Virus record (IMG/VR): IMGVR_UViG_3300033148_001478
Span: 1 to 25,824 of that record
DNA from: a virus
Direction: 5' to 3' (one strand)
Length of the DNA stretch: 25,824 nt
Shown: positions 15,893 through 25,824 of the stretch, one piece after another
Numbering within the stretch: the stretch's first letter is position 1
Layout: the number at the start of each line of letters is the position of its first letter
Position numbers and translations under genes: made by a program
Notes under the pieces: model-generated
What the model was told of the DNA's origin: nothing
What the model saw: only the letters and a program-made list of their open reading frames with translations
Database searches by the model: none

Positions 15893-16102
15893 CTATTTAG
15901 TGTCAAACCTTGCAGAGTACAATGTATCTGCTCTGTTGATTTGTTTTATATCTCCGTTCTTATCAAAGTGCAATGTAGCACTCCCATTACGAATGTAAAA
16001 CACTTCACTGTCTATAAGAGTATTAAACACATCAAAGTACTCTTGAAATAAAAGAAACTTTGACGCTTCCTCATCAGCTATGTATACAGGTATTTTATTC
16101 AT
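15893..16102 (-). CDS. Small conserved-looking protein after terminase
   Basis: The protein has 69 residues from the ATG at 16102; a longer start at 16123 lies deeper in the terminase gene. The start overlaps the end of the large terminase gene by eight bases, and AGAGAA lies about four bases before the ATG. It reads IPVYIADEEASKFLLFQEYF, VFNTLIDSEVFYIRNGSATL and HFDKNGDIKQINRADTLYSA. Short proteins of this form (an acidic helix, then VFxIRNGSxTLHFDxxGxIxxI) commonly follow large terminase genes in environmental phages, but I know no proven function. The segment to the terminator (15848-15892) holds no gene. Confidence 0.55.
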   Translation of the reverse strand: MNKIPVYIADEEASKFLLFQEYFDVFNTLIDSEVFYIRNGSATLHFDKNGDIKQINRADTLYSARFDTK

Positions 16103-18524
16103 TATTTTCTCTAAACATCGCACTCACATCATATACATTGTCAGCATTTATGACAGACTTCTTATTTGTCATTTCATCATCACTTACAAACACCCCCGCC
16201 CCACGGCTTAATACTGCAAGTCTGTAGTACAGTGAAGCGAAACAGAAGTGATCTTCTCCCGTAGTTGAACCCCAACAGTTATGTACTAGCACCCCATTTG
16301 CAAAGTATTCTGGTGTATCTTCAACAGTCAGATTATAAACTCTTTCTTTTTTTCCAAGACTGTCGATTATAGTATTTGTCTCCACATTTCTTACTACAGT
16401 ATTTTCCCCCTCTCTTATGTCTGGTAGTACATTCTTTCTTACATTCCAAGCAAGAGAACTTCTTAAAGTCTTTAGTAAAAAAGTTTTCTCTACCATGTTT
16501 CTTAAAAAAGGTTTTAGCTTTTGCTGTTTTTTTCCATTCATCAAATCCAGTAAACCACTTCTCTTTCGTATTTTTGGTAAATCTTCTTTTTGCCCATGAT
16601 GGGTCTGCGTAGTAGATTTTAAAGTGGTGTTTATAGTGTTCTTTTCTAGATAACGCTTCCAAGTTATCTGGCGAATTATTAGACGGATTATGGTCTTTGT
16701 GATGTACAATAAAACCTTTTGGAATATCACCAAAGTTATCTTTATAAACTTCTTGGTGTAACCTCTGAATACCGAGTTTCCTATATTTCTCTGACGGTCT
16801 AAAGTAATTACGGTCTGTATAACTTTTAGAGTTAGAGTATCTACTAAATGCAATATCTTTATATATAATTGTTTCTGTTGCCATATATAAACATTACCAT
16901 CTAATGGTATAGAGCGCAACTGTTGCAAACCATTACTAGTAAAGACTGGATGGTCACCAGTTCCACACAATCCACCTCTAGTAATCACGCTATCAAGTCT
17001 ATTCATTGTTAAAGAAACTTTTTTAAATCCATCTCTTGTTAAAACTCTATCCCCTTCTTTTATATCTTCAATATTTCTATCTCCAAACTCTGTTATTACT
17101 TTTGTACCAGCAATAAAACAATACCGCTCAATCCCTTTATTGTTTACAACTTTCTCTCTCCGTAAAGTCTCAAAGTGCTTTATGAACATATTGAAATCTT
17201 TATCAGGTTGTACCCCAATCAGCCACTTCGCTTCAATCATATCAGTAAGCATACTGTCCAATATTCTATCTCTATGAGAATAAACAATATTATTCTTCTC
17301 ACCCTCACCCCACCATACGATTGTCTGTGGATTGTTTTGATTTTCCATGAAGTACGACATCCTCATCCAGCTATACTTTTCTGTGTAGTATTTGGATGCT
17401 GTACTATCCGGCATAGCATCAATCACTCCAGCTGTAGGTTTCCAAAACTTAATAATATCATCAAGATCACTCCATTCACTGAATCTACCCACTTTCAGTA
17501 TTCCTAGTTCACTACCAATCACATAATGTTTAATATTTCCTACATCAATACCAATGTATATATTTCCAGTAGTAGCAAGGTCTTTTGGTGTCCATAAATC
17601 AAGTATCGTGGTTTTCGATACAGATAAATCACCCGGACTGTATGATAATCCTAATACAAAGTTATTAAAGTACGCTGGGTCACCTTCGCTATCTTCTATA
17701 ATCTCCCCTGCACTAATCCAACAACACATTAAATGAGATATGTGGTAACCGTTCCATCCTTGTGGATTTTCTTCTGAATACCCTTTACTTGGCTGTTGTG
17801 CTACCCACTCCCCATTACGTATCACATCCTTTTCTATCTTACCTTTACATTCTCGACACTGGAACTCTTTAGTTTCTATGTTGATAGAGTCAGGGAATAT
17901 AAGGAACTGTGAGTGATTACAATGAGGACACACAATAGTCCATTCTTTCTGGTCACTCTTTTGGAAGGCTAAGTCTAATTCATCGCGTTCAGTTCCAGGG
18001 TTTGAGAATAGCCAACGCCCTTTATACTCACTCGCTTTAATACGTGACTTGTATGTTTCAATAGCTCCTTGATCTGATCGTGAAATCTCATCATGTATCA
18101 ATAGGTCTGCTGTCGTTGAGATAGCTGCGGTCTTTGAGTTTGTACCTTTAAAAAATATGAAGCGGTCATTCAACTCTTTACGTTCAATGTTATCTGTAGC
18201 CATTCCTTGAAACTCATGCACGTTTGTCTGTACAATCTTATTAAACTTAGATGATACAAACTCACTCACATCAGAGTCAGAACTCATAGTGTAAATGATG
18301 TTGAAATGTAGATATTTAACAGCAAACAATGCTTTTACAGAGAAGGAAACTGATTTTCCCACCTGCGCACAGGCTGTCACCACAATATTAGGTGAAAAGT
18401 CTGTAAGTATATCTAATAGAAAAGGTCTATCACTGAAATCAAAAGCATCACCTTTTTCATTGACTATCCCCTCCTGCACAATCCACTCTAGGATTGAGAA
18501 ATATTGTTTATCCTGTTTCTTCAT
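16095..18524 (-). CDS. terL: Large terminase subunit (GpA-like) interrupted by an intein
   Basis: The precursor has 809 residues; removing the intein (469-749) leaves a 528-residue terminase. The ATPase domain has Walker A at 51-59 (GKS 56-58, in TACAQVGKSVS) and Walker B LLIHDE at 141-146. Four Cys (199, 202, 223, 226; CPHC and CREC) form a zinc site as in lambda gpA-type terminases. The nuclease domain has D327 in YIGIDVG, D369 in GVIDAMPD and D758 in GEDHF after the intein. The protein pumps phage DNA into the capsid and cuts it. The start overlaps the groEL end by 17 bases, and the stop overlaps the next gene. The intein sits eight residues before the last catalytic Asp, so unspliced protein should lack nuclease activity. 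Confidence 0.92.
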   Translation of the reverse strand: MKKQDKQYFSILEWIVQEGIVNEKGDAFDFSDRPFLLDILTDFSPNIVVTACAQVGKSVSFSVKALFAVKYLHFNIIYTMSSDSDVSEFVSSKFNKIVQTNVHEFQGMATDNIERKELNDRFIFFKGTNSKTAAISTTADLLIHDEISRSDQGAIETYKSRIKASEYKGRWLFSNPGTERDELDLAFQKSDQKEWTIVCPHCNHSQFLIFPDSINIETKEFQCRECKGKIEKDVIRNGEWVAQQPSKGYSEENPQGWNGYHISHLMCCWISAGEIIEDSEGDPAYFNNFVLGLSYSPGDLSVSKTTILDLWTPKDLATTGNIYIGIDVGNIKHYVIGSELGILKVGRFSEWSDLDDIIKFWKPTAGVIDAMPDSTASKYYTEKYSWMRMSYFMENQNNPQTIVWWGEGEKNNIVYSHRDRILDSMLTDMIEAKWLIGVQPDKDFNMFIKHFETLRREKVVNNKGIERYCFIAGTKVITEFGDRNIEDIKEGDRVLTRDGFKKVSLTMNRLDSVITRGGLCGTGDHPVFTSNGLQQLRSIPLDGNVYIWQQKQLYIKILHLVDTLTLKVIQTVITLDRQRNIGNSVFRGYTKKFIKITLVIFQKVLLYITKTIIRLIIRQITWKRYLEKNTINTTLKSTTQTHHGQKEDLPKIRKRSGLLDLMNGKKQQKLKPFLRNMVEKTFLLKTLRSSLAWNVRKNVLPDIREGENTVVRNVETNTIIDSLGKKERVYNLTVEDTPEYFANGVLVHNCWGSTTGEDHFCFASLYYRLAVLSRGAGVFVSDDEMTNKKSVINADNVYDVSAMFRENNE
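16278..17120 (-). mobile_element. Class 1 intein in terL, 281 residues
   Basis: The intein begins at Cys469 of the precursor (CFIAGTKVIT, block A; TGT at 17118-17120). Block B is GLCGTGDHPVFTSNG with its His at intein residue 57. The end is ERVYNLTVEDTPEYFANG, then VLVHN (blocks F and G), followed by Cys as first residue of the C-extein. Cys1, block B His, penultimate His, final Asn and +1 Cys are all present, so splicing should work. Clear splicing-domain sequence covers only about 78 N-terminal and 35 C-terminal residues. The middle, about 165 residues, has no in-frame endonuclease and looks like the out-of-frame reading of the HNH gene that occupies the same DNA. Confidence 0.92.
16333..16884 (-). 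CDS. HNH homing endonuclease nested out of frame inside the intein
   Basis: This complete 183-residue ORF has its own ATG and TAA, in the -1 frame relative to terL. It contains RLHQEVYKDNFGDIPKGFIV, then HHKDHNPSNNSPDNLEALSR and KEHYKHH, a full HNH motif with H61-H62, N74 and H83. A C-terminal Cys cluster follows (CLECKKEC and KYCSKKCGDK; Cys145, 148, 152, 163, 167), likely a zinc ribbon for DNA binding. The N-terminus (FSRYSNSKSYTDRNYFRP) matches the lead-in of free-standing phage HNH nucleases. Its last 15 or so codons overlap real intein C-domain sequence in the other frame. No good ribosome site precedes the ATG. It presumably cuts intein-less terL alleles to spread the intein. Confidence 0.85.
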   Translation of the reverse strand: MATETIIYKDIAFSRYSNSKSYTDRNYFRPSEKYRKLGIQRLHQEVYKDNFGDIPKGFIVHHKDHNPSNNSPDNLEALSRKEHYKHHFKIYYADPSWAKRRFTKNTKEKWFTGFDEWKKTAKAKTFFKKHGRENFFTKDFKKFSCLECKKECTTRHKRGGKYCSKKCGDKYYNRQSWKKRKSL

Positions 18525-20034
18525 CCTTATTTACAATTACAGTTTCAGTACCAACAAGTGAGATCGTTACTGCCGTAGCGCTCTCTAGTGCAAGACGTAA
18601 TACTTTATATGGGTCTACTATTCCATCGTCGAACATGTTTACTACTTTCTTTGTTTTAAAATCTATCCCCATTTCCCCTTTGATAGTCTGCGGATATCCT
18701 ATAGAATCCATACCTGCATTTTTCATCATCTGAATCTGAGGTGTATGTAAAATACTCTTAAACATAGGCTCTTTCACATTACATACAGACAACGCAGTCC
18801 CACCTCCTGCAACAATCCCCTCCTGCAACGCTGCTTGTGTTGCATTGACAGCATTTTGAAACTTGTATTTCTTAGCATTAAACTCTGTATCTGTGTATGT
18901 TCCTACTCGAATAACTCCAATACCTCCAGTGAGTTGTGCTAGACGATCCTGTAATTGCATCTTTTCATACTCACTTGTGGTTGACTCTATCTGTCCCTCA
19001 ATATCTTTAATTCTAGTATCAAGTGTTTCTGTAGACTTACCACCGATAATAGTTGTTGTATCTTTCGTTACAATAACCTTTTCAGCCCTACCACATAACT
19101 CAACTCCTGCTTCATGCAGTTTCATTCCCATTTCTTCACTGATAACCTTTGCACCTGTAAGTGCTGCCATATCGAATAAGAAATCCCTAGCTGGTGTTGC
19201 GGTAAATGGGTTCCGAACACAAGCTATTCCTGCAACTCTATTCTGTGCATTTTGTGCAAGTGTTCCAAGTGCTACAGAGTCAACATCTGTGGCAATGAAA
19301 AGAATGTTTTTACCTGTACCAATGGAGTTAAGCAATGAAATAACCTGCTCATTCATACTAATTTTACGGTCAACAAGCACTATATAAGCGTCTTCTAGTA
19401 CTGTTTGCATGTTCTCATGGTCATTCACAAAGAATGGTGATATAAGCCCACTATCAAACCTTGCACCCTTTACCACTTCTTTTGAATACCCAAGTTGTGC
19501 ACCCTTTTCAACAGTCACCACACCATTAATACCTATTTCCTTAATCACTTCTGCTATAAGTTTAGCCACATCTGCATCAAGACTGGAAATAGTAGCAATC
19601 TTTTCAATATCATCTTCTGTTACATCTCGTTTATTCTTCTTTAGTTCAGTCAATACTTCTTTCAATCCTGTTTGTAGACGTTCCTTAACTTCTCGTATTT
19701 TTGAGCTATCACTCTCTATTTCTTCAAATGCTTCTTTGACCAACGCTTGTGTGAGAACTGTAGTTGTCGCAGTACCATCACCACCTTCCTCACTAGTGCG
19801 AACAGCAGCCTTCCTGAGCGTCTGGACACCAATTTGCTCATATCTATCATGTAATTCAATATTCTTTAGAATGGTAACACCATCATCTACTTCAATAGGA
19901 TCAAGTCCTTGAAACTCAATCATTGCAGTCATTCCTACAGCTCCAAGAGTGGGTTTGACAGCATCCGCAGCAATATCAATACCTCTTTTAATCTTTGATC
20001 GTGCTTCTGCTCCTTGTGTTATTTCTTTACTCAT
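18508..20034 (-). CDS. groEL: GroEL-type chaperonin with altered ATPase residue
   Basis: The protein has 508 residues; cellular GroELs are near 545, and the GGM-repeat tail is absent. Hallmarks are DDGVTILKNIEL (D51, equal to E. coli D52), GGDGTATTTVLTQ (D86, equal to D87), VAGGGTAL (410-412) and GIVDPYKVLRLAL (equal to the D495 region). At the position of catalytic D398 the protein has Asn394 (KFQNAVNATQAA against E. coli RVEDALHATRAA; codon AAT). TLGPKG of the nucleotide loop is TLGAVG. It should form a GroEL ring working with the GroES just upstream, most likely folding phage proteins such as the capsid. ATP hydrolysis may be slow. It overlaps groES by four bases and terL by 17. Confidence 0.93.
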   Translation of the reverse strand: MSKEITQGAEARSKIKRGIDIAADAVKPTLGAVGMTAMIEFQGLDPIEVDDGVTILKNIELHDRYEQIGVQTLRKAAVRTSEEGGDGTATTTVLTQALVKEAFEEIESDSSKIREVKERLQTGLKEVLTELKKNKRDVTEDDIEKIATISSLDADVAKLIAEVIKEIGINGVVTVEKGAQLGYSKEVVKGARFDSGLISPFFVNDHENMQTVLEDAYIVLVDRKISMNEQVISLLNSIGTGKNILFIATDVDSVALGTLAQNAQNRVAGIACVRNPFTATPARDFLFDMAALTGAKVISEEMGMKLHEAGVELCGRAEKVIVTKDTTTIIGGKSTETLDTRIKDIEGQIESTTSEYEKMQLQDRLAQLTGGIGVIRVGTYTDTEFNAKKYKFQNAVNATQAALQEGIVAGGGTALSVCNVKEPMFKSILHTPQIQMMKNAGMDSIGYPQTIKGEMGIDFKTKKVVNMFDDGIVDPYKVLRLALESATAVTISLVGTETVIVNKDEETG

Positions 20035-21603: not shown

Positions 21604-21612
21604 ATTATACCA
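21604..21612 (-). promoter_or_regulatory. Extended -10 promoter for the packaging operon
   Basis: On the minus strand TGGTATAAT is a perfect extended -10 element (TGnTATAAT). The -35 region 17 bases upstream (ATAACT) is poor, as often with extended -10 promoters, and falls on the DnaA box at 21629-21637. Transcription would start near 21597 and give a leader of about 30 bases that includes the A-rich repeat. Confidence 0.6.
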
Positions 21613-21616
21613 TAAC

Positions 21617-21645
21617 TTGACAGAGTAGTTATCCACATTCATAAC
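21617..21645 (+). promoter_or_regulatory. Plus-strand promoter candidate with DnaA box in spacer
   Basis: A perfect TTGACA (21617-21622) is followed after 17 bases by CATAAC (21640-21645), which matches four of six positions of TATAAT. The DnaA box lies inside the spacer. A second candidate downstream is TTGTGT (21656-21661), 16 bases, TATACT (21678-21683). Either could drive the gene at 21734. Confidence 0.4.
21629..21637 (+). promoter_or_regulatory. Perfect DnaA box
   Basis: TTATCCACA is the exact consensus DnaA box. It lies between two divergent promoters, inside the spacer of the plus-strand candidate and over the -35 region of the minus-strand promoter. A second perfect copy is at 24035-24043, in the other divergent region. 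Host DnaA could regulate these promoters or help start replication. Confidence 0.6.
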
Positions 21646-21671
21646 TGTATACACCTTGTGTATATATACAG
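21645..21671. promoter_or_regulatory. Operator-like inverted repeat
   Basis: CTGTATA and TATACAG form 7-base arms of a 27-base imperfect palindrome, with an inner CAC-3-GTG dyad. It covers the -35 hexamer of the second plus-strand promoter candidate. A repressor site is plausible. No repressor gene is identified here apart from the small HTH protein at 24086. Confidence 0.4.
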
Positions 21672-21707
21672 ATAGTGTATACTATAGATAGGTCAAGAGG
21701 AGCATTA

Positions 21708-21723
21708 AACAAATAACAAATAA
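21708..21723 (+). repeat. A-rich leader repeat, right copy
   Basis: AACAAATAACAAATAA is identical to the minus-strand copy at 21571-21586 and ends ten bases before the ATG at 21734. It consists of 7-base AACAAAT units and a third, near copy follows. An AGAGGAG sequence at about 21696-21702 is too far upstream of the ATG to act as its ribosome site. Confidence 0.6.
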
Positions 21724-21733
21724 CAAAAATACT

Positions 21734-21982
21734 ATGACAACAAAAAATGCAATCAAGAAGTTAGAAAAATTAGGATATAAAGTTGAAAAAGCAAGTTCAA
21801 GAACATACAGAGCCACACTAAGAGGAGGAGTACTGGAGTTTAGCCAAAACGGAGAAGACCAAGATGCAAGTATCGTATGTATAGGAGTACGAAACCACAA
21901 TGACGAGAGCGACCCAATGACAGATTACTGTGCATTTACTTTTTATAACAACCTTACTCAAGCACTAAAATATAATATTTAA
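21734..21982 (+). CDS. Small hypothetical early protein
   Basis: The 82-residue protein reads TTKNAIKKLEKLGYKVEKAS, YRATLRGGVLEFSQNGEDQD and DPMTDYCAFTFYNNLTQALK. It fits an alpha/beta mini-domain (a helix, three or four strands, a helix). The form 'knaikkLekxGykv...tDYxaxtFyxNLxqAl' is known to me from small uncharacterised phage and bacterial proteins, without a function. It is the first gene rightward from the divergent control region and is probably co-transcribed with the zinc-ribbon gene after it. There is no Shine-Dalgarno site, only the A-rich leader. Confidence 0.65.
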   Translation: MTTKNAIKKLEKLGYKVEKASSRTYRATLRGGVLEFSQNGEDQDASIVCIGVRNHNDESDPMTDYCAFTFYNNLTQALKYNI

Positions 21983-21983
21983 T

Positions 21984-22124
21984 ATGACAAAGACATCAAT
22001 CCAAACAGAACTTATGCGTAAGCTCCACAAATGCCTTCGATGCAAACATCAATGGCTCGGAAAAGAGAACCCACAAACATGCTCAAAGTGTCGATCTCCG
22101 TACTGGAATAAGCCTAAAAAATAA
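21984..22124 (+). CDS. 46-residue zinc-ribbon protein
   Basis: The ATG at 21984 follows the previous stop directly. The protein has KLHKCLRCKHQWLGKENPQT, then CSKCRSPYWNKPKK. This gives two CxxC pairs 16 residues apart, the pattern of small rubredoxin/zinc-ribbon proteins (CxxCxxxW...PxxCxxCxSxxWxxP). Such micro-proteins are frequent in phages and small-genome bacteria and may bind DNA, RNA or polymerase. It ends just before a strong terminator, which supports it as the last gene of a two-gene unit. Confidence 0.65.
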   Translation: MTKTSIQTELMRKLHKCLRCKHQWLGKENPQTCSKCRSPYWNKPKK

Positions 22125-22130
22125 CACCTC

Positions 22131-22159
22131 AAAACCACCTACTTTCGCAGGTGGTTTTT
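22131..22159 (+). terminator. Rho-independent terminator
   Basis: A perfect 10-bp stem (AAAACCACCT at 22131-22140 and AGGTGGTTTT at 22149-22158) closes an 8-base loop and ends in a T tract. It closes the two-gene rightward unit. The A run before the stem would also let it work on the minus strand. Confidence 0.85.
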
Positions 22160-22221
22160 AGCACACCCAAATGCCTACAAATGACAAGGTGAATAGTGAA
22201 TAGCACTCTCAACTCCCCCCC

Positions 22222-22260
22222 ATATATACATACTTTATATATATATATATATATCTATTA
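22222..22260. other. A/T-only tract, possible DNA unwinding element
   Basis: Apart from three C bases, these 39 bases are all A or T, with a long alternating TA run. An easily melted tract beside repeated protein sites is the usual build of a replication origin. It could also be a simple microsatellite with no function. Confidence 0.4.
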
Positions 22261-22318
22261 AGTAAGAATTACTATTCACCTATTCACCTTTAGGGATTAA
22301 ACGGCTTAAAACAACAAT

Positions 22319-22360
22319 AAAAAAGGTGAATAGTACTATTCACCACTGTTCACCTTTTTT
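22319..22360. terminator. Large hairpin, probable bidirectional terminator
   Basis: AAAAAAGGTGAA (22319-22330) and TTCACCTTTTTT (22349-22360) are perfect 12-base arms. Both strands end in six T bases, so it can stop transcripts from either side. It lies between converging genes (plus-strand zinc ribbon, minus-strand helicase). The first arm also pairs within the 20-base palindrome, so two exclusive folds are possible. Confidence 0.6.
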
Positions 22361-22396
22361 CGTCTTACTATTCACCTTTTTAGCATTTCATAATAA

Positions 22397-22428
22397 AAAT
22401 ACAACCTGTCAAATGACAAGTTGTATTT
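22397..22428. repeat. 15-base inverted repeat with 2-base loop
   Basis: The arms 22397-22411 and 22414-22428 (AAATACAACCTGTCA and TGACAAGTTGTATTT) differ at one position. The outer A/T ends allow weak termination in both directions. It may also extrude as a cruciform near the candidate origin. The sequence is unrelated to the GGTGAATAGT repeats around it. Confidence 0.6.
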
Positions 22429-22480
22429 AATGTGGTCTTATGGGTGAATAACCTTTTTAAAAGGTGAGTAGTGTTCACCT

Positions 22481-23989
22481 TTAGAAATCATCTTTTTCTC
22501 GGATAAATCCAGCTGTATTTACCTCATAATATTTCTGTAATTTAAGCCCACACCACACATTTCCATTTTTGGTATGCTTAGTAAAAATGTTACTAAATTT
22601 ATTCAATCCATGCTGCTTCAACATCACTCCAAATCTTTGTGGAGTGAGTGAATTAGAATATTTATCAGGGTTAAATTGTTTGTATGCTTCCAGTAACATT
22701 TTAGTCTTAACAGGTGTTGATTCTTCATCAAATACAAAGTATTCATCAAGAAACTCTGCAACTGTATTGCTACTGGTTTTATAATCCTCAATCATATCCT
22801 CATGACCTTCAATCATAGTAAACCCATTGTTCTTATTCAGGTCTGCAAGTCCTCTCAACATACGATTCAATACACCAGATGCTTCATTCTTCAATATAGT
22901 ACGTATATTCTGATTCACTGTCATGCTGTCATAAAAAGAATACTCCAAGTAAATAAGTATCATACGTCTATATATACCCATTTCAGCACTTCTAGGTAGT
23001 GTGTTGGCAGTGAGTATACATTTGAGCTTGTTATCAGCTTCTATAATCCCATTGATACCTTTACGCTCTACATTTATATGTTGACCTGTTACAAGGTTAA
23101 TCAATGAGTTACCCATATTAGATCGTGTTACCTCCACTTCATCAAACCAACATAAGTGTTTCCCTACTAGAGATGATCCACGAAATCGAAACGAATCGCT
23201 AGATATATCCTGTAATCCTATCTGTGTCGAACATTCACCAAGTACATCACTCCAACAATCAAGCAACGTACTCTTACCACTTCCGGGCTTTCCTATCAGT
23301 ACCAGCATCTTTTGTTTGGTAATATCAGGTGTAAGTAATAAACCACTAAACTGATCTATTGCACGCACTTGGTCTTTCTTCAATTTAATCTGTTCATCTA
23401 GGAACTTATCATAAACAGGACACTCAGCTGTAGCGTCATACATAACAGCACTTACTCTCCTACTTCTAAAGGAAGGTGTATGTGGTGTGAACTTGAGTGT
23501 ATGTATCTGCACCCATCCATTATGAGCATGGAACCAATCGTTGTCTGTATCGAAATCATCATAGTGTACACCTCTATCAATATGTTCAGCTCTATACTTT
23601 GCCATTATAATTTTAGCAGTACCCTCAGTAGCGTTTAGTTCAAATGATTCCTTTATCAACATGCTAATAACGTACCCACGTACTATAGAGAAGTTCACCT
23701 CATCATATACACCTGTTTGCTTGTTGTAGTTCCAGTACACCTTGTCTTCACCTAGTTCAAAGAGTAAGTGTGGGTATGCAATAGCTACGTTCTTATGGAA
23801 GTTAGCAACATATGCTTCCTTTAATATCTTCTTAACTGCGTTCCAGTTCTTCTCTTGCTGGTCTGCTGGTATCGCTATGTGCTTATAGTATGCACTTCGT
23901 TCAGGAGTATCATCGACATCTTTAATAGGGTCTAAACCCATATCTGATAATTGTTTGTTCAATTCATCAAGACTTTTTATATCTGACAT
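22481..23989 (-). CDS. Superfamily 3 replicative helicase, D5-like
   Basis: The protein has 502 residues from ATG 23989. I chose this start because an extended -10 box lies seven bases before it; longer frames begin upstream of that promoter. Residues 1-200 form a D5_N-like region. The SF3 core has Walker A GKPGSGKST (233-241), Walker B LCWFDE (279-284), motif C KCILTANTLPR (323-333) and a likely arginine finger in YRRM (340-343). The C-terminal 130 residues are a winged-helix-type DNA-binding region. Such enzymes form hexameric rings that unwind DNA for phage replication, often with a primase. Here a CHC2 zinc domain is encoded across the divergent promoter. No polymerase-type primase domain is visible in this protein. 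Confidence 0.88.
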   Translation of the reverse strand: MSDIKSLDELNKQLSDMGLDPIKDVDDTPERSAYYKHIAIPADQQEKNWNAVKKILKEAYVANFHKNVAIAYPHLLFELGEDKVYWNYNKQTGVYDEVNFSIVRGYVISMLIKESFELNATEGTAKIIMAKYRAEHIDRGVHYDDFDTDNDWFHAHNGWVQIHTLKFTPHTPSFRSRRVSAVMYDATAECPVYDKFLDEQIKLKKDQVRAIDQFSGLLLTPDITKQKMLVLIGKPGSGKSTLLDCWSDVLGECSTQIGLQDISSDSFRFRGSSLVGKHLCWFDEVEVTRSNMGNSLINLVTGQHINVERKGINGIIEADNKLKCILTANTLPRSAEMGIYRRMILIYLEYSFYDSMTVNQNIRTILKNEASGVLNRMLRGLADLNKNNGFTMIEGHEDMIEDYKTSSNTVAEFLDEYFVFDEESTPVKTKMLLEAYKQFNPDKYSNSLTPQRFGVMLKQHGLNKFSNIFTKHTKNGNVWCGLKLQKYYEVNTAGFIREKDDF

Positions 23990-23996
23990 GTGTCTT

Positions 23997-24005
23997 ATTG
24001 TACCA
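23997..24005 (-). promoter_or_regulatory. Extended -10 promoter of the helicase gene, leaderless
   Basis: TGGTACAAT on the minus strand is followed by exactly seven bases and the helicase ATG. Transcription should start at or within a base or two of the ATG, so the mRNA would be leaderless. The divergent gene has the same arrangement. Confidence 0.6.
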
Positions 24006-24034
24006 CAAGGGTGCATATCTATATTGCGTGTAAC

Positions 24035-24043
24035 TGTGGATAA
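24035..24043 (-). promoter_or_regulatory. Perfect DnaA box
   Basis: TTATCCACA (minus strand) lies midway between two divergent leaderless promoters, 30 bases upstream of one -10 and about 30 of the other. It is the second exact DnaA consensus in the window, in the opposite orientation to that at 21629. Confidence 0.6.
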
Positions 24044-24069: not shown

Positions 24070-24078
24070 TGTTACAAT
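24070..24078 (+). promoter_or_regulatory. Extended -10 promoter of the early operon, leaderless
   Basis: TGTTACAAT is followed by seven bases and the ATG at 24086, the same TGnTACAAT-N7-ATG layout as on the other strand. The -35 region is T-rich and weak. Confidence 0.6.
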
Positions 24079-24085
24079 ATTAAAC

Positions 24086-24280
24086 ATGGATGAAAAAGAA
24101 AAATTAATCAGAGGATTATTAGATAATAAACGTACAGAATTAATCTGGGCGTTATCTTTACAAAAATACACACAGTCTGACATAGCATATATGCTACGTG
24201 ATGCTGATGTTTCTACTATAAGTAGAACCATTAATAAACGTCCACCTACATGGAAGCCTAAGTGGGTTAAACAAAAATAA
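24086..24280 (+). CDS. Small helix-turn-helix protein
   Basis: The protein has 64 residues from the ATG at 24086; an upstream in-frame GTG lies before the promoter, so I rejected it. Residues about 15-50 (ELIWALSLQKYTQSDIAYML, then DADVSTISRTINKRP) form a clear helix-turn-helix of the sigma region 4/replication-regulator type, with recognition helix VSTISRTINK. The tail is basic and Trp-rich (PPTWKPKWVKQK). It probably binds DNA in the adjoining control region and may regulate its own promoter at the 14-base palindrome. A sigma-like or anti-host regulator is an alternative. Confidence 0.7.
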   Translation: MDEKEKLIRGLLDNKRTELIWALSLQKYTQSDIAYMLRDADVSTISRTINKRPPTWKPKWVKQK

Positions 24281-24281
24281 C

Positions 24282-24494
24282 ATGATAAAAAACATACTAA
24301 GACTATTCACACAGATAGTAGGGTTCGTTACACTGTTCTTAGCAGTAATGATACTCTTCATCAACTTCGTAGCATGGGATAACTTATTCTCTATAATAGA
24401 CTTATTCCAATTAGCGAGGATTATAATCGTTTCATCTGCATCAGCCACAGCAATGGCTGTAGCACTAGACTATGAAAGTTTTAAATCTATCTGA
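24282..24494 (+). CDS. Small membrane protein, two helices
   Basis: The 70-residue protein has two hydrophobic stretches: IVGFVTLFLAVMILFINFVA (residues about 12-31) and IIIVSSASATAMAVALDY (about 47-64). A short polar loop separates them and the N-terminus is basic. This is the layout of a small two-helix inner-membrane protein. A role in superinfection exclusion, or as a holin, is possible, though an early operon is an unusual place for a holin. The gene begins one base after the HTH stop and overlaps the primase gene by 23 bases. Confidence 0.55.
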   Translation: MIKNILRLFTQIVGFVTLFLAVMILFINFVAWDNLFSIIDLFQLARIIIVSSASATAMAVALDYESFKSI

Positions 24495-24951
24495 AGCCCT
24501 AACCATCTTCAACCCTCACCTATCAGATATCAAGGAAGCACTGATTGAGAACATGAACTATGCTATATCACAGCTACATACACCGACAAACTGGATACAG
24601 GAGGAAGTAAGAAAGATAGAGGTACAGAACATCATAGAGAAACCGTCACGTGTAGTGAAGCGTATCGTGGCACTACAACAACCACGTACAGTGAGTCAAG
24701 CGTTCAACTCTATCACCGATGCAGATATAGAACGTGCAAAGGAGTTTCCTATTGAAGAGTTGTACGATGGAACGTTGCAAGGTGGTATGGGTAAATGTCC
24801 ATTCCACGAAGACAAAACAGCATCTCTATCTTTCAGAAGATATAACAGATTCAGGTGTTTCGGTTGTGATGCGAGAGGTAGCGTTATTGATTACTACATG
24901 AAGAAGCACAACGTGGACTTTATTAGGGCTGTGCAACAGCTACAAGGTTAG
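24472..24951 (+). CDS. Stand-alone CHC2 zinc-finger primase domain protein
   Basis: The protein has 159 residues. The C-terminal 55 residues are a CHC2 domain: KCPFHEDKTASLSF (Cys109, His112), then RFRCFGCDARGSVIDYYMKK (Cys129, Cys132) and VDFIRAVQQL. This zinc domain lets DnaG-type primases read the template. The first 100 residues are helical, with no known motif. There is no TOPRIM catalytic domain in the protein or in the rest of the window, so catalysis must come from another protein, perhaps host primase or a gene beyond the right edge. The gene lies opposite the SF3 helicase, supporting a replication role. Confidence 0.8.
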   Translation: MKVLNLSEALTIFNPHLSDIKEALIENMNYAISQLHTPTNWIQEEVRKIEVQNIIEKPSRVVKRIVALQQPRTVSQAFNSITDADIERAKEFPIEELYDGTLQGGMGKCPFHEDKTASLSFRRYNRFRCFGCDARGSVIDYYMKKHNVDFIRAVQQLQG

Positions 24952-25144: not shown

Positions 25145-25350
25145 TCTGCACTAAATGCACAAAAGACAAACACTACAGTGAGTTCACTGTAAATAAACAC
25201 AATGTAAGTGGGTACTCCTATAACTGCAGATCTTGTGTTAAAGAGAAGTATGGATTCTCCAAGAAAGAAGACATCTTCACATCTAAAGTGAAGAACTACA
25301 AAGACTATTTAAAAGCAGATGAAGAGAGGAGAGGTAAGAATAAAATATGA
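25141..25350 (+). CDS. Small zinc-ribbon protein
   Basis: The 69-residue protein has MICTKCTKDKHYSEFTVNKH and GYSYNCRSCVKEKYG, two CxxC pairs 23 residues apart. It ends with a basic helical tail. The 'CxkCxxxkxxseFxxxxxxxxGxxxxCrxC' pattern is common in phage proteins linked with HNH or recombination endonucleases, usually of unknown role. It overlaps both neighbours by four bases (ATGA-type), so translation is probably coupled with the nuclease gene after it. Confidence 0.55.
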   Translation: MICTKCTKDKHYSEFTVNKHNVSGYSYNCRSCVKEKYGFSKKEDIFTSKVKNYKDYLKADEERRGKNKI

Positions 25351-25824
25351 AACTCAAATCATTCAACGAGAACATAACACTAGACTTCGATGTAGCAAGT
25401 CACGAGTACCACTACAACGGCAAGAAGTTACTGTCTGCGTCTACTTTTGTAAAGAAGTATGAGAAGGAGTTTGACAAGGAACGTATCAGTGCATCATTCA
25501 GTGCTGATTGCAACGTATCGCAAGCAGATGTATTACAGATGTGGGAAGATAATGGTAAGTCAGCGTCTACCTTCGGAACTGCTATACATCTTGTGTTGGA
25601 GAACTACTTCAAGAACGAAAAAACAGGATGTAGGGTACGTGTAGCAAAAGGCAAGGAGCACAACGCAGCGATGCCTAATCACCCATTTTTACGGAACCTT
25701 ATACTTTCATTGAAACCGTTACTAACTAAAGGTGATTCTGTTCAAGAAGCATGTCTATCACTCCACAAACAAGGTATTTGTGGACAGTTGGACAGGCTCT
25801 TGATACTGGATAGTGAGAAGAAGA
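25347..25824 (+). CDS. PD-(D/E)XK nuclease (Cas4/RecB-like), cut by window edge
   Basis: The first 159 residues are visible. Motif I is FGTAIHLVLENYFKN (GxxxHxxlE). The acidic core appears later as VQEACLSLHKQGICGQLDRL, where GxxDRL gives the metal-binding Asp. The expected DxK strand lies past the right edge. Residues 1-40 include HEYHYNGKKLLSASTFVKKY, the S-x-T-x-h opening typical of this family. Such phage nucleases act in replication-linked recombination or end processing. It is the last visible gene of the early operon with helicase-linked functions nearby. Family assignment is good; the exact role is inferred. Confidence 0.75.
   Translation, partial: MKLKSFNENITLDFDVASHEYHYNGKKLLSASTFVKKYEKEFDKERISASFSADCNVSQADVLQMWEDNGKSASTFGTAIHLVLENYFKNEKTGCRVRVAKGKEHNAAMPNHPFLRNLILSLKPLLTKGDSVQEACLSLHKQGICGQLDRLLILDSEKK

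Follow-up and report, generated by a model that had tools for sequence, protein, structure and literature searches.

The viral DNA analyzed here, a stretch of 25,824 nt that we call the window, carries a perfect DnaA box, TTATCCACA, between the divergent promoters of a D5-type helicase and a replication operon headed by a small HTH protein. Judged from sequence, this box is real, conserved, and functional-looking, and we consider it likely that host DnaA, whose binding is predicted here, controls the helicase and the divergent operon through it. The features discussed below are as follows.

24035 to 24043, minus strand: perfect DnaA box TTATCCACA, R1/R4 type; exact match, central to the divergent helicase/HTH promoters and a conserved element of the phage family
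21629 to 21637, plus strand: second perfect DnaA box; exact match, in the region separating the leftward structural operon from a small rightward gene
22481 to 23989, minus strand: replicative helicase of the D5/P4-alpha kind, 502 aa; D5_N, DUF5906, and a Pox_D5 C terminus
23997 to 24005, minus strand: extended -10 of the helicase promoter, TGG-TACAAT, hexamer 24002 to 23997; 32 nt from the box and 7 nt before the ATG, with no -35
24070 to 24078, plus strand: extended -10 of the divergent operon, TGT-TACAAT, hexamer 24073 to 24078; 29 nt from the box and 7 nt before the ATG at 24086
24086 to 24280, plus strand: small HTH protein of 64 aa that opens the divergent operon; every one of the ten lineages has a member of its family in this operon
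24472 to 24951, plus strand: CHC2 zinc-finger primase-like protein of the divergent operon, by profile matches
25347 to 25824, plus strand, running off the window: exonuclease-like gene of the divergent operon (phrog_298)
22170 to 22482, no strand assigned: probable replication origin, with iterons GGTGAATAGT/ACTATTCACC around a TATATATA island at 22226 to 22264, directly 3' of the helicase
21604 to 21612, minus strand: perfect extended -10 of the leftward operon, TGG-TATAAT, hexamer 21609 to 21604; 19 nt from the 21629 box, which stands in reverse orientation

An earlier note on this DNA had reported that TTATCCACA occurs exactly twice, at 21629 on the plus strand and at 24035 on the minus strand, and an exact scan of the 25,824 bases found these two copies and none elsewhere. 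Both are exact R1/R4-type boxes and match the high-affinity consensus by sequence. The gene starts on either side bear out their placement in small divergent control regions: the 21629 box lies between 21566 (minus) and 21734 (plus), and the 24035 box lies between the helicase ATG at 23989 (minus) and the start of the small HTH ORF at 24086 (plus). The coordinates likewise agree with the description of the two boxes as oppositely oriented and flanking the helicase and the repeat cluster. Well under one copy had been anticipated by chance; the expectation is indeed 0.30 copies in the window, though at least two copies arose in 2 of 100 dinucleotide shuffles. Matches with one mismatch numbered 8, compared to 9.0 expected, so that only the perfect word is in excess; the looser consensus TTWTNCACA gave 4 matches, compared to 4.9 expected. 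From the window alone, the case for two copies is weak and suggestive.

Conservation was assessed in relatives of the helicase (about 48 to 69% identity), comprising about sixteen viral contigs, the phage record MW202577, and one MAG contig, which were grouped into ten independent lineages with a readable promoter, the window being counted among the ten; individual relatives are cited by L numbers. A box within one mismatch of TTATCCACA is present upstream of the helicase in all ten, in one orientation throughout, and begins 42 to 85 nt upstream of the helicase start. When all 262,144 9-mers were scanned on the sense strand over the 110 nt upstream of the helicase, allowing at most one mismatch, TTATCCACA was the single best conserved word (10 of 10 lineages). 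In 300 dinucleotide-preserving shuffles, the best of any 9-mer reached 6 lineages at most (average, 4.8), and TTATCCACA itself no more than 2 (average, 0.33). In pairwise comparisons anchored on the box, identity was 93% inside the box but 29% in the 60 flanking bases, indicating that its conservation does not merely reflect common descent of the region. No such box was found upstream of distant D5-type helicases (0 of 13).

These data bear on the possibility that a common 9-mer occurs here by chance. The 2 of 100 shuffles of the window that contained two copies, and a 21629 copy that is not regularly conserved, would be in line with it, but recovery in ten of ten lineages of a word that reached at most two in 300 shuffles makes it extremely unlikely, and for the 24035 box it is refuted. 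For the 21629 box, a chance origin is perhaps unlikely, though far from negligible. Conservation in relatives, which the earlier note had put forward as a check on both boxes, is thus what makes a convincing case of the 24035 box and a weaker one of the 21629 box.

The box architecture was also searched for in 2.9 million viral contigs with two pattern scans, which returned 35 and 24 places; the helicase family accounted for 5 and 7 of these, respectively. Wider use of the architecture in other phages was considered and set aside, since the remaining places look like coding or chance matches. L104, L105, and L106 have another exact box each, two of them intergenic and that of L106 apparently inside a small ORF; no common gene was found behind these additional boxes.

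In the relatives as in the window, the 24035-type box is central between two back-to-back extended -10 elements (TGn-TATAAT-like) with no -35; on the helicase side, the -35 position averages 2.1 of 6 matches against a background of 2.6 and falls below background in most lineages. The gap from the box to the helicase -10 is 21 to 22 nt in L004, L007, and L010, and 32 to 34 nt in the window, L003, L006, L012, L015, and L017. On the other side, the gap to the divergent -10 is 19 to 20 nt in L003, L004, L006, L007, L010, and L015, and 29 to 31 nt in the window, L012, and L017. On either side of the box, the two classes differ by one helical turn. This phasing gave P values of 0.02 and 0.002 with automatic -10 calls that included L055, whose promoter spacing does not fit, and of 3e-5 and 1e-5 with curated -10 calls from which L055 was left out. 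A fixed position relative to promoter elements, together with conservation in relatives, was found for the 24035 box only. The helicase -10 ends 6 to 8 nt before the ATG in 7 of 10 lineages, and the helicase message is therefore probably leaderless, with the start site in the window at or beside the helicase ATG. Both the helicase and the HTH mRNAs look leaderless in the window (23987 to 24005 and 24070 to 24088) and in most relatives.

We infer that DnaA is the binder from properties that are observed directly, namely, the word, which is conserved in sequence and orientation and is phased to both promoters, and the lack of a -35. Host DnaA would bind a single high-affinity box between two extended -10 promoters that lack a -35, and the bound protein, contacting RNA polymerase, would set the output of the helicase and of the divergent replication operon. 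The earlier suggestion that host DnaA times early and late transcription divides: control is well supported for the 24035 box by its presence in 10 of 10 lineages, fixed orientation, and phased spacing, and the "early and late" part is supported only partially, in that the 21629 box has the same architecture (19 nt to TGG-TATAAT) but a box in its region was found in only two relatives. A phage-encoded DnaA was considered as the binder and rejected, as none was found in the nine phage records searched.

The departures from TTATCCACA in the relatives fall at positions 3, 5, and 7. The L017 box, TTATACACA, differs at position 5 only, as do secondary inverted boxes in L003/L005 (TTATGCACA) and in L006/L014 (TTATTCACA). 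All three change a base that DnaA tolerates, position 5 of the consensus TTWTNCACA being any base (PMC5835720). On the other hand, the box is TTGTCCACA in L003/L005 and TTATCCCCA in L008 and L012, variants that are weaker by the consensus of E. coli; these variants, the L055 spacing, and the tentative host assignment count against DnaA as the binder.

The small HTH protein of the phage offers a different candidate. Its gene is first or second in the divergent operon in every one of the ten lineages, and TTATCCACA could be the operator through which it regulates itself and controls the helicase, its likeness to a DnaA box being due to chance or mimicry. We regard this as rather improbable. The recognition helix varies widely (STISRTI, SRIHVIV, STAHDII, TAIHKII), and the protein is only 30 to 43% identical to its distant members, whereas the word hardly changes; conversely, the HTH proteins of L008 and L013 are identical, but their boxes differ (TTATCCCCA versus TTATCCACA). 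The three independent changes at position 5 also argue for DnaA rather than an HTH operator. Better operator candidates, identified by eye, are lineage-specific palindromes between the box and the -10, such as CCAGAACA..TGTTCTGG in L008. The protein resembles sigma-70 region 4/HTH_23 and lacks homology to DnaA domain IV; the idea that it mimics this domain was discarded at an hhalign probability of 1.8%.

If host DnaA binds the 24035 box, the sign of its effect has to be considered. DnaA could act as a repressor or brake, keeping the helicase and early operon low until it is titrated or its nucleotide state changes. This variant of DnaA control would fit the six lineages in which the box overlaps the -35 position on the divergent side (gap of 19 to 20 nt), as in repressed DnaA promoters, and DnaA is known to repress dnaA and mioC (PMC5835720, PMC8203912). 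However, spacing is phased on both sides, as for regulators that contact the polymerase, and as neither promoter has a -35, a bound protein would have little to obstruct on the helicase side. We therefore infer that activation is probably the likelier sign at this box and that repression is unlikely. With a mostly activating DnaA, phage replication would be coupled to hosts in which DnaA is active.

The earlier note had also raised origin melting near the iteron-like cluster. The cluster 3' of the helicase is likely the replication origin: in almost all lineages, an AT-rich island immediately 3' of the helicase is surrounded by iterons whose word is particular to that lineage and nearly absent elsewhere in the locus. 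The lineage-specific iterons GGTGAATAGT, ATGACGGATA, ACTGACACT, CTATCCACC, AATGTCACC, GGTGACATA, and ACGGTACCC surround a TATATA island at the same place, at 22170 to 22482 in the window and 3' of the helicase in L003 to L007, L010, L012, L017, L055, and L016; as sequences, they read as fast coevolution of the origin with the helicase. D5-type helicases such as P4 alpha recognize iterons themselves, and the helicase would probably recognize this origin without DnaA.

That the boxes flank the helicase and the iteron/AT-rich cluster could be taken to mean that they serve initiation of phage replication, with DnaA helping to melt the origin or to load the helicase, as in P1, pSC101, and other iteron replicons. 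This is very unlikely. TTATCCACA is absent from the 440 nt around the iterons in all 12 phages analyzed, so that boxes inside or next to the origin, the hallmark of DnaA-dependent iteron origins of the P1/pSC101 type, were not found. Moreover, the iterons are ~1.5 kb away from the conserved box, which invariably stands at the 5' end of the helicase and whose position is linked to promoter spacing; self-recognition of iterons by P4 alpha-like helicases also speaks against such a role. Origin melting was therefore rejected as the main role of the boxes. The only DnaA-type word in these 440-nt regions was TTTTCCACA, found in three relatives; this mioC-type DnaA box lies at the helicase stop codon, on the border of the iterons (L005, 13435; L006, 3535; L014, 6850).

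For the 21629 box, the geometry relative to the -10 of the leftward operon matches what most relatives show on the divergent side of the helicase promoter. In the corresponding region, a box was found only in L003 (TTGTCCACA) and L004 (TTATCCCCA), the latter 22 nt from TGG-TATGCT; the other relatives have no box there. This box is probably functional in the window phage, judging from its promoter context, though no fixed trait of the family, and through it DnaA would probably control the leftward structural operon in the window phage and some relatives. At 21630 to 21700, GTATACAC/GTGTATAC palindromes and an AGTTAT-N8-ATAACT inverted repeat overlap the 21629 box and form a possible operator for a phage repressor.

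The helicase matched Pfam D5_N, DUF5906, and Pox_D5 above cutoffs, as well as phrog primase/helicase families, and has the domains of the D5/P4-alpha kind. It is followed on its 3' side by the iteron cluster, two small genes, and the leftward structural operon, which comprises terminase, portal, head protein, and GroEL-like genes. The terminase large subunit (16095 to 18524) probably contains an intein, given Hint/splicing profile matches at residues ~469 to 749, and is adjoined by the phage GroEL-like chaperonin (18508 to 20034; phrog_5725). The helicases of L017 and L016 carry a longer fused N-terminal part (L017, 794 aa); the long L017 helicase still has its upstream box, TTATACACA, and the L016 contig is cut off upstream.

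As to the host, the 3-kb contig that carries one relative, L015 (JANLIJ010000158.1), was assigned to a Candidatus Kaiserbacteria MAG, which hints at Patescibacteria hosts, misbinning being possible. The assembly of this MAG gave no dnaA match, and the other 383 of 384 genomes of the same class contained no close match. In Patescibacteria genomes of that class, related to the MAG, DnaA keeps the RDHTTV recognition motif, and TTATCCACA was found 16 times near dnaA genes, compared to 4 times for the reversed word, which speaks for DnaA as the binder of the phage box.

The closest parallels come from a few systems. In lambda, the DnaA sites are consensus-like, are located downstream of the promoter, and function together with O/P-DnaB. 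In E. coli, nrdAB is either activated or repressed by DnaA, which also stimulates transcription of lambda replication genes (PMC8203912); this stimulation is at pR/pO (PMC3985674, PMC8203912). In both lambda and the phages described here, where the case is predicted from sequence, host DnaA near a phage promoter regulates phage replication proteins; unlike in lambda, the box is single and perfect, lies upstream between divergent promoters, precedes a D5-type helicase, and has been kept throughout a phage clade. The E. coli dnaA, mioC, and nrdAB promoters similarly have TTATCCACA-type boxes near or upstream, at which DnaA represses or activates depending on nucleotide and level, but these are chromosomal and have several boxes, whereas the bidirectional phage promoter here has a single box. 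P4 alpha and pRN1-type replicons likewise combine a D5-like helicase with an origin-like region immediately downstream and a small DNA-binding regulator in the vicinity, but most members here have a helicase without a fused primase, and their iterons vary between lineages. We know of no control by DnaA boxes described for P4 alpha or pRN1-type replicons. The regulator of pRN1 is an HTH protein (PMC4234260). Phages of Alphaproteobacteria have CtrA-controlled promoters that confer "lytic deferment" (PMC9437464); there too, phage promoters carry sites of a host cell cycle master regulator, although the regulator and the hosts are different. The same study also looked for DnaA sites in 499 phage genomes, and their distribution was not skewed (PMC9437464). 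In our literature search, which covered mostly papers outside subscription journals, we came across no description of a DnaA box conserved in the promoter of a phage helicase.

Known cases of phages that sense host physiology are few, with lambda acting via DnaA and phages of Alphaproteobacteria via CtrA. It is quite possible, although we advance the idea tentatively, that a phage clade, perhaps of ultrasmall Patescibacteria, has put its master pair of replication promoters under the control of the host initiator via one phased DnaA box, so that infection would proceed (fully) only in the right DnaA state, a DnaA counterpart of CtrA-dependent lytic deferment. The promoter pair may serve as a natural reporter for a single DnaA box acting on RNA polymerase at two helical distances. 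If this idea is true, the strictly conserved single box would show in clean and minimal form how a virus reads the most universal of bacterial replication proteins, and the phages concerned would be those of uncultured, possibly host-dependent bacteria.
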